NCBI GenBank assembly: GCA_029210725.1
Contig: JARGFM010000029.1
Location: 1 to 43,604 of the forward strand
Reading direction: 5' to 3'
Source: Bacteroidales bacterium
Lineage (GTDB): Bacteria; Bacteroidota; Bacteroidia; Bacteroidales; GCA-2748055
DNA length: 43,604 bases
The notes beneath the pieces were generated by a model. It had not been told where the DNA came from and made no database searches. It saw only the letters and a program-made list of their open reading frames with translations. Each line of letters opens with the position of its first letter. Position 1 is the stretch's first letter. A program made the position numbers and the translations under genes. Of the stretch, positions 8,985 to 11,566 are shown piece by piece.

Positions 8985-10134
8985 ATCCGCATTTTCAGCA
9001 TTTCGATCTGCAATTCAAAGATATTTAATTCTTGAATGCCGATTCCAGCAGCTTTTGAACAGGTCCGGTAATGGGCAGATGTGTGGCTCCGCAGGACCGG
9101 GAGGCCTGCTTACACAGAACAGCATATTCCTCTTTTGTTCCACTCAGAGACGCGGGATCGGTCAGGGCCGCAAGGGCCGCCCTGGCAAGTTGGGAAAGAC
9201 GCACGGAATGGGGTTCCACCTCCAGCAGCCTTTCATTGTCTTCAAAGGCCGGAGCCAGTTGTTCATGGTTGTCCGACCAGGGTTCCAACATGAGTATTAA
9301 GCTGTCACGGGCTGCTTCCTCGCCCGATTCTATCCAGCGATCCACATACAGTCCGAAACGATAGGCCACATAACTTTCCGGCAGGGCCGCATCCACCATT
9401 CTGTTCAAAGGTGTTGTGGTGTAGAGCATGGGTTCATACAGTTCAATCCGGGCAAACATCTTGTCTTCCTGCAGAAGGCCGGTCAAGGTCAGTAATGGCT
9501 CCAGATATGGTTCTGAAACCATAGCGGCCAGAAGAATGTTCCGATAGCTAAGGTGTTTCATTCCAAGCTTCTCCAGGTAAGTATCCAGGACCATCAGGCG
9601 CCGGTACATATCTGCCGCATCCCCGGTCAGTACCGCAGGGCTCCACAGTTTCTCCCCAATGGCTGCCGCCCGTGGCCATATCCTTGATTCAATGCTTAGG
9701 CTATCTACCTGTTCGGTCCACATACATGCTTCTCCTCCGATCAGAAATTCTTCCTGAGCAGGAGTCAGAGCTTCAATCTTTTTAAATTCCGGCAAAGGGA
9801 CTCCTGCAGTCATATCGCTTCCGCCGGAGCGCCGGCCCTGGAGTGCCAGGTTAAATACGGAGATTTTAGAGGAACCGACGATTGAATCGCCATGCAGGGA
9901 GATTTCAAATTCCATTTCTCCCATGGGTCCCTCCACCAGAAAGGAGAGATGGTTCCCTTCAGTGGTCACCTCCGTGAAGCCCAGGGGGCTATCCAAAATC
10001 TCCACGATTCCTCTCCGGGTTTCTCCTTCGCCAAATATATACAGGGCGCCATCCATAAGCATTTCGCCAATGCTCAGGGTGCAATCCCATCCTTTCCAGT
10101 TCAGGGAGTCGATTTTAATATCGACAGCCCCTTG

Positions 10135-10243
10135 AATTACGCGAGCGCATTCCCCGTAGCTCTGCTGCGGGGTAAGCGAGCACATTTAAAATAAACAATT
10201 AATCGATGATTCCTCGCAGCTTGCTGCGAGGAGAATCAATTAC
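10135..10243. repeat. 6-bp direct repeat (target-site duplication) flanking the REP-like insertion
   Basis: AATTAC occurs at 10135-10140 and again at 10238-10243, immediately outside the hairpin element. In the GH20 coding sense this is GTAATT (Val-Ile). The upstream part reads D-P-A-V-I then element, and the downstream part reads V-I-Q-G-A-V-D. One Val-Ile copy is therefore duplicated, as expected of a target-site duplication. Confidence 0.75.
10141..10237 (-). mobile_element. REP-like paired-hairpin element (REPIN-like) inserted in the GH20 gene
   Basis: A 97-bp insertion bounded on both sides by the same 6 bp (AATTAC on the + strand, 10135-10140 and 10238-10243). It holds two hairpins: 10212-10231 is a perfect 9-bp stem (CCTCGCAGC/GCTGCGAGG, 2-nt loop), and 10152-10172 is a 9-bp stem with one wobble pair (CCCCGTAGC/GCTGCGGGG, 3-nt loop). 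The stems share a GCAGC/GCTGC core and are separated by an AT-rich spacer. Two related REP palindromes in one small unit is the REPIN arrangement mobilised in trans by RAYT tyrosine transposases. No RAYT gene is in the window. Excision with one repeat restores the GH20 reading frame, so this is a true insertion. Confidence 0.8.
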
Positions 10244-11566
10244 AGCTGGATCTACCTGGTAGTGAAAAGAAGCATTTTGTTTATGATCCAGATAATATCC
10301 TGCCGAAAGCACAGCTTTATTTCCCAAACGGGCGCTTTCCCATAGCGAATTCTGATCACGCCAGCTTTGAACGGAAATTTCTCCCCGGGGAAGGTCGGGA
10401 TGCAGGATCTCATCCCATCCCATCATTTTTTTCCATGGGATGCCACGATCTTTTGCAGGCGGATATTGAAATGGGCCTGCAGGGCGTGGGGATCTTTCAG
10501 TTCATGCTCCCTCATATATTTCTGTATTTCCGGATTTTCGTTCCACTGGGTGGGAACCACCTCATCCCCGCCAATATGCAGGTACTCCTCCGGAAATAGG
10601 CCGGACATCTCGCCAAAGAACTGATCCAGAAACTCATATACCTCATCCCTGGTGGGATCCATGGCCGGTTGAATTCCCAGCATGGCCGAGTCGAGTTCAT
10701 AGGGTCCGGGGCCACTGGCCAGTTCCGGATGACCCACAAACCAGGCAGCGGTGTGCCCGGGAACATCAAATTCCGGAACCACCCTGATGCCCCTGTCCGC
10801 TGCGAATTCAATGATCTCCCGGATATCATCCTGCGTGTAATAGTCCCCGTTGGAACCAAATTCATGCAGTTTCGGGAAGAGTTTTGATTCGACTCTGAAT
10901 GCCTGGCTCTCGGTCAGATGCCAGTGGAAGACATTCATCTTTAAGGCAGCCATCGCCTCCAGGTTTCGGATTATCACCTCTCTCGGGATCCAGTGCCTGC
11001 AGGCATCAATCATCAGGCCCCGCCAGGGGTACCTGGGATGGTCTTCCAGGCGCATGACGGGAATCACCCATTGGCCCTCCTGCTTGACGGCCAGTTGAAG
11101 AAGTGATTCCAGGGCATATAAAATGCCGGTCTCTTCCGGAGCCTTCACCACAATCCTGTTTACTGTTACCTGGATGGAATAGGATTCGTCATCATCCAGG
11201 GATGGATAGGGTCTTTCATCTCCGCTGCATTGGATGATCAGGCTCTTGTTGCTGCCAGCTCCCAGGTCCATGCCGGTTGCCCCGGATAGTTTTTTATAGA
11301 ACCTCTGTATGGCGCGCTCAAGCCTGGGGGTAGAAAGTGTTGAAAATTCATGTGTCCAGCCCGGATTCAGAATAAATTCTCCCTTTCCCAGTTTCATTTC
11401 TGCAGGAAGGGGCATCAAATGAATGGATGCACGGTCCTCCACGGAGACGGGAGGAGGGGCAGGTTTTAGAAATCCAAACCAGGCAGTGGCCGCGGCCAAA
11501 AGCAAAAAAAGAATTATCCAGGCAATAATTTTCAGTACTTTCTTCATCATATTCAGATAGTTGGGA

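Follow-up and report, generated by a model that had tools for sequence, protein, structure and literature searches.

Introduction

Insertion sequences of the IS200/IS605 type insert without target duplication, have the longer spacing on the left and use the words TTAC/TCAA and TTGAT. In PMC6006769, their representatives IS608 and ISDra2 are described as carrying a hairpin near each end, with the target word flanking the left end, and as targeting the lagging-strand template; the same paper calls REPs species-specific. A tagged family of palindromic repeats, with the tag CGTC, is said in PMC3733652 to be without a dedicated transposase.

Here we describe a short inserted element that shares features with each of these systems. 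As in IS200/IS605, there is a hairpin near each end, a target word on the left and a bias towards the lagging-strand template; however, the element has neither tnpA nor tnpB, and its number of hairpins seems to range from one to three. It resembles REPINs in its two hairpins, its inverted short tags and its many near-identical copies per genome but differs from them in its tag, TTGAA instead of GTAG, and in the distance of ~15-19 nt between the left tag and its hairpin. Unlike REPs as PMC6006769 describes them, the family is common to several phyla. With the CGTC-tagged repeats, compared by description only, it has in common a tagged palindrome and the apparent lack of a dedicated transposase, although the tag differs. 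We argue that the element is mobile but non-autonomous and probably moves in single-stranded form, a conclusion that bears on the identity of the enzymes that disseminate short palindromic repeats and on whether REP-like DNA requires a resident RAYT.

An inserted element in a GH20 gene

The window, the whole stretch of 43,604 nucleotides under analysis, comes from a Bacteroidales genome of 3.81 Mb in 70 contigs that is 98.6% complete (hereafter the home genome). Its features of interest are the following.

9028..10131, minus strand: part of the GH20 gene downstream of the insertion (C-terminal piece of PF00728, E 2.7e-11)
10132..10136, plus strand: native target word TTGAA, directly left of the inserted DNA (TTGAAT left of 10/10 full home copies; TTGAA at 13/21 empty NrfD sites)
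10137..10239, plus strand: inserted element of 103 bp, TTACGCGAGCG...GAATCAA (found at 16 places in the genome; removal of 103 bp restores frames; ends as in the Delta copies)
10152..10172, plus strand: left hairpin, 9-bp stem with one T.G wobble, CCCCGTAGC/GCTGCGGGG, preceded by CATT (DNA fold; two-sided stem changes in 36 aligned copies)
10207..10238, plus strand: right hairpin, perfect 9-bp core CCTCGCAGC/GCTGCGAGG inside ~10211-10232, extended by TGAT/ATCA across a bulge, with GATT before the core (DNA fold; two-sided stem changes in 36 aligned copies)
10240..10243, plus strand: native TTAC, which after the last AA of the element mimics a duplicated AATTAC (the equivalent bases vary at other copies, the first T excepted)
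10240..11550, minus strand: part of the GH20 gene upstream of the insertion (PF00728, E 1.9e-65 on 10423-11550)

The ends of the window element may slide by ~3 bp through the common AAT. A preliminary description of the window had proposed a GH20 gene interrupted by inserted DNA with two hairpins, one with a perfect 9-bp stem and one with a 9-bp stem containing one wobble, and our analysis bears this out. The net insert is 103 bp, its removal rejoins the GH20 frame, and the orthologues in congeners are uninterrupted in all six strong matches, with open frames of 807-831 amino acids. The downstream piece is matched over its full length in six congeners at 55-71% identity. Four of the six proteins were read at the insertion site (L084 and L085 were left out) and show VDP-VI[SP]GAV, without the insert. 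Hence, the empty site exists in relatives, and no relative was seen to share the 103 bp inside a normal GH20 gene. A second, independent frame change coincides with a seven-T run near 10423 (window 10415-10430). It is either a true mutation or an assembly error, and with it the GH20 gene as assembled is broken twice.

Recent copies in the home genome

The preliminary description had named further copies in the genome beforehand as a test, and these were found: the home genome gave 18 matches to the element, corresponding to 16 places. Ten copies have the full length and share 99-100% identity with the one in the window, whereas the other six places hold two copies with a left end longer by ~27 bp and four partial ones. 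At six of the ten full copies, a continuous reading frame is restored when 103 bp are taken out; the frames are those of GH20, GH26, an FtsX-type permease, an S9 peptidase, NrfD and a protein with a HELAH motif, the larger part of which has no Pfam match. GH26 loses 18 C-terminal residues and the permease 13. Long frames are likewise joined on removal of two more copies (L005 and L007), and we take these for upstream extensions of the genes beside the insert. The comparison with relatives covered two of the interrupted genes, GH20 and NrfD. The idea that genes might splice out or bypass the insert was dropped because the orientation of the element to the six interrupted frames is mixed (four antisense, two sense).

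That the ten copies are nearly identical suggests that the element multiplied recently, interrupting six reading frames; the enzyme responsible would then be absent from the assembly. In a crude frame test, an open frame of at least 150 amino acids holds 7/10 full home copies versus 346/400 random places, and 12/45 parsed copies of another genome, G046, versus 340/400. These counts suggest that the home copies have been little filtered and that those of G046 have been filtered towards intergenic DNA.

The left end with ~27 extra bp (TTAGCTGCGCTGAGCTCGTAAACTCGG or close) occurs in L011 and L012 of the home genome and in L038 of G009, and the extra bases may form a third small hairpin.

Insertion behind TTGAA without duplication

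The left flank of all ten full home copies is TTGAAT, followed by TACGC in nine and TGCGC in one; AATTAC thus opens nine of them and AATTGC the remaining one. They end in GAATCAAT, after which the DNA is variable, and the right-hand bases at other home copies are AATTCA, AATACC, AATCCC, AATCTA and AATTGA. The two AATTAC words around the insert had been interpreted in the preliminary description as a 6-bp target duplication, which the other copies contradict. Because AATTAC starts nearly all full copies, the left AATTAC is not copied target DNA, and the right one consists of the last AA of the element and native TTAC. Nothing beyond the 3-bp AAT ambiguity is duplicated at the home copies, where a 3-bp duplication of this triplet is indistinguishable from sliding ends, and there is no duplication in G046.

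The empty sites support the same rule. We scanned 22 NrfD loci and found the site with equal spacing in 21, the remaining one being the filled gene of the home genome. Among these 21 empty sites, 13 have TTGAA, 7 have TTAAA and 1 has neither (TTGAAT occurs exactly in 3), and therefore the target word was present before insertion. A second repeat in G046 is found filled, as TTGCATCTTGAA / CACGC...GATTCAA / CTTTTTGAGC, and unfilled, as TTGCATCTGGAGCTTTTTGAGC, with equal outer lengths, and the genome G049 holds an unfilled variant of this landing repeat, CTTGAACTTTTTGAGC. In addition, the right end joins the left end directly in head-to-tail units in G049 (TTCAA / TATGCATAGCG) and in L144 (TTCAA / TCTGACAGCG). 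The head-to-tail units together with the filled and unfilled sites place the start of the element after TGAA and its end in (T)TCAA. Hence, the element always enters in one strand orientation, immediately 3' of a (T)TGAA that was already present, duplicates nothing and ends with (T)TCAA; an IS200/IS605-type element is likewise expected to insert 3' of a constant short word and to leave no duplication. Tandem arrays are not the rule, as there are two clear head-to-tail cases only and two further matches are ambiguous.

A dispersed repeat, GCTGCTGAAAAAG...CTTTTTGAGCAGCCTG...GAGTTTTTCAG, is the landing site of the element in L359, L379 and L383 (G046) and in L441 (G049).

The bases next to the two ends bear on another possible origin, in which the element is a MITE of a DDE transposon that moves as double-stranded DNA and duplicates either 3 bp (AAT) or 6 bp of its target. 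In its favor, AAT stands at both ends of 10/10 full home copies. However, the 6-bp duplication is absent at other copies, and no duplication of constant length was found. Of 49 parsed G046 copies, 46 have a C directly behind the left TGAA, whereas the base that follows the right TTCAA, parsed in 39, is T in 18, C in 9, G in 7 and A in 5, so that no triplet is duplicated there. Moreover, the ends are without long inverted repeats, and double-strand cut-and-paste does not predict the strand bias described below. We consider a DDE origin very improbable. In the home genome the base after TTCAA is T in 14/14 parsed copies, and T is therefore either preferred or part of the element there.

Two conserved hairpins

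As single-stranded DNA, the 109 nt at positions 10132-10240 fold better than 200 of 200 dinucleotide shuffles (z -3.3); the values for the opposite strand are z -2.8 and 1 of 200. The hairpins are subterminal, as in IS200/IS605-type elements. From 42 distinct two-hairpin copies that were parsed, 36 were aligned, with six near-duplicates or variants left out. RNAalifold recovers both hairpins from this alignment, and two-sided changes that keep the pairing affect 7 of 27 consensus pairs. TGAA and TCAA are invariant in the 36 copies, which were picked by a pattern requiring both words. A candidate for a guide word at the hairpin foot, of the kind that pairs with the target in IS200/IS605-type elements, is ATT(C), which stands before each hairpin in almost every copy and could pair with GAA(T); by eye it shows no variation with the target.

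The bases just 3' of TGAA complement those before the second hairpin (CCGTAA/TTACGG, TCTG/CAGA, TCCCC/GGGGA and ACACA/TGTGT). The mean complementary run is 3.68 in 25 distinct pairs versus 2.42 with shuffled partners, and 0 of 2000 shuffles are as high, in a comparison uncontrolled for kinship. The seven Bacteroidales copies of the window's family have just 2-3 such pairs.

Strong and conserved stems could also belong to something that does not move, such as an old functional RNA or a terminator-like hairpin passed on by vertical descent, and the position of most G046 copies outside frames would suit such a role. Against this stand the ten near-identical copies at unrelated sites, six of them within reading frames, the GH20 and NrfD genes that are intact without the element in relatives, and an Rfam search of 7 loci at E<=1 in which the element itself had no match (one cspA-like match lies elsewhere in L011). 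We give a non-mobile nature almost no credence.

Strand bias and a model for movement

We used the GC skew of the surroundings as a proxy for replication direction, in place of mapped origins; the G-rich strand is usually read as the lagging-strand template. The left-to-right strand of the element lies on the G-rich strand in 14/16 home copies (contig or 50-kb range), in 36/51 copies in G046 and in 23/33 in G049. With other ranges the home count is 13/16 (within 15 kb) or, in a first version of the analysis with one stretch per copy, 12/16 (p 0.077); the first version gave 37/51 for G046. Pooled over the three genomes, 73 of 100 copies lie on the G-rich strand (p 4.7e-6), a count that mixes ranges (contig for the home genome and G046, 15 kb for G049) and becomes 72/100 with 15 kb throughout. 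Some of the G046 copies are in duplicated surroundings and hence are not independent. At an absolute skew of >0.015 the counts are 14/15, 35/48 and 19/25 for the home genome, G046 and G049, respectively.

The G-rich strand carries 50-53% of the TTGAAT, TGAAT and TTGAA words in the home genome, 48-51% of TGAAC, TTGAA and TGAA in G046 and 44-46% of TGAAC and TTGAA in G049, and composition is therefore no explanation for the bias. The element agrees with the strand that holds most genes of its stretch in 9/16 home copies and in 33/51 copies in G046 (p 0.049); in G046, though not in the home genome, it thus also follows the genes, which weakens the case somewhat. By analogy with IS200/IS605, this bias towards the lagging-strand template, seen by GC skew in three genomes, may be taken as a sign of single-strand insertion into that template.

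The anatomy of the element, its target rule, the lack of duplication and the strand bias fit single-strand peel-and-paste, for which we infer an enzyme and a circle intermediate. We hypothesize that the strand exposed at replication forks folds and that a nuclease reading the hairpin and TTGAA would cut after TGAA and after TTCAA. This nuclease would most likely be a Y1/HUH enzyme of the IS200/IS605 or RAYT type, acting in trans and either brought transiently or since lost, and the excised strand would then be pasted behind another TTGAA. A candidate enzyme for the reaction would have to cleave behind both TGAA and TTCAA, and the strand it acts on is most likely the lagging-strand template. 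Exact ends and target, natural empty and filled sites, and recent copies in a nearly complete genome with no detected Y1 gene, in a family found in several phyla, make the mobilizer findable.

Candidates for the mobilizing enzyme

The preliminary description had suggested looking for a RAYT (Y1_Tnp) gene with the same hairpin beside it, and the home genome yielded none: PF01797 (Y1_Tnp) gave no match at E<=0.001, and the REP-associated transposase model NF047646 gave none at E<=10. At E<=10, PF01797 has two matches only, with E 0.26 and 0.54 and no HxH motif by eye. It is the home genome that firmly combines recent copies with the failure to detect a Y1 gene, and such a gene may be missing from view through an assembly gap, loss or a transient carrier. 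Across the 41 genomes searched, 15 match the element (the home genome counted in), and Y1 genes do not track it, being present in 10/15 genomes with the element versus 18/26 without. We count the lack of a Y1 gene in the home genome and the lack of tracking against single-strand movement by a Y1 enzyme.

Y1 genes nevertheless occur in a number of hosts. PF01797 matches 13/18 hosts from the pattern scan. NF047646 matches 16 of 31 genome handles, all chosen for holding the element or its right-end pattern, but exceeds its cut-off in 2 only; it matches 2/14 of the element-bearing handles from the window's family. G058 looks like a repeat of G020, and G050 like a repeat of G011. RAYTs are present in G041 (204 bits) and G049 (188 bits). 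G046 and G049 are blank with PF01797 but have a RAYT by NF047646, that of G046 being cut by a contig end, and recent activity in these two genomes is therefore no argument against a RAYT.

The RAYTs of G041, G049 and G046 keep alive the view of the element as a canonical REPIN, moved by a lineage-resident RAYT that was recently lost or missed by the assembly. The two inverted hairpin units and the high copy number are those of a REPIN/RAYT system, and the inverted end tags TTGAA...TTCAA copy the layout GTAG...CTAC. Yet the foot of the hairpin does not carry GTAG (or GT[AG]G), as 10/10 full home copies have TTGAAT on the left and TCAAT on the right, and the home genome has no RAYT flanked by the repeat. 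Without the GTAG tag and a linked RAYT the element is not a REPIN by definition, though it works like one. Furthermore, matching by regular expression places a complete element no more than 1.5 kb away from only 2/30 RAYT-like loci (L283 and L299), a count with no expected number alongside, and one RAYT of G041 (C27) and that of G046 adjoin a different palindrome. Of the REPIN-like paired hairpin element in the preliminary description, the mobile, repeated and two-hairpin part stands and the link to a RAYT was not found; we regard the canonical REPIN as unlikely.

The palindrome next to the RAYT in L295 (G041) and L292 (G046), CGGGTTCAGG...CCTGAACCCG and a related form, likely makes an ordinary REP-RAYT pair. 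A REP-associated-type transposase in L073 (G011, contig 333), on a short contig of a 69%-complete genome, is possibly a contaminant.

A mobilizer outside Y1/RAYT, which could be a recombinase acting on folded single-stranded DNA, another HUH nuclease or an RNA-templated route, is a somewhat better candidate than a canonical REPIN, though still a tentative one. It would account for recent multiplication in the home genome with no Y1 found, for G044 (CP114561), G053 and G058, in which neither Y1 model has a match, and for the multi-helix fold with covariation. However, no such enzyme is linked to the element, since inspection by eye suggested no relationship among the frames that separate close copies, and Y2 (IS91) matches 3/26 genomes searched, the home genome not among them. 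Y2/IS91 was consequently rejected as the mobilizer there. The IS200/IS605 TnpA of congeners was also rejected as a parent, as its ends and flanks differ and the loci examined around these genes contain no copy of the element. In L049, L050, L052, L053, L054 and L078, the congener genes are followed downstream by a shared type of hairpin, CCACTCCCTGAAGCGAAGTGG, which is presumably the right end that belongs to them.

A wider family

The exact right-end pattern occurs in at least 119 stretches of the genome collection and has no exact match in viral contigs. Among the matches listed, the titles are mainly Deltaproteobacteria/Desulfobacterales, with Nitrospirae, Bacteroidales, Fibrobacteres and others; MAGs with Deltaproteobacteria, Nitrospirae, Fibrobacteres and Bacteroidales as titles carry related elements, frequently at high copy number. 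In 80 loci among the matches listed, the common layout is TGAA, 5-9 nt, a GCGAGCGCATTC hairpin, TTAGCGAGCG, an AT-rich stretch, a GAAGATTC hairpin and AGCTTCAA. The lengths from the left word to the right end cluster in these loci at 51-52, 71-81, 108-123 and 147-172, which we read as one, two and three hairpins. No larger parent with an open reading frame between such ends was recognized in the 80 loci or, by eye, in the frames between close pairs. The sequence strings of the element were not found in the PMC literature searched, and the family may have been published.

These data raise the possibility, doubtful as yet, of a cross-phylum superfamily of TTGAA-tagged elements with one to three hairpins, spread as single-stranded DNA by a trans-supplied enzyme outside the known Y1/RAYT families. 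All 12 host genomes searched with a Delta copy as the query gave matches, 8 of them with 41-44 matches, where only 40 candidate places were scored and unscored first-look candidates number up to 365, and 4 with 2-32 matches. A Micromonospora match to the right-end pattern, without the left end, is probably due to chance.
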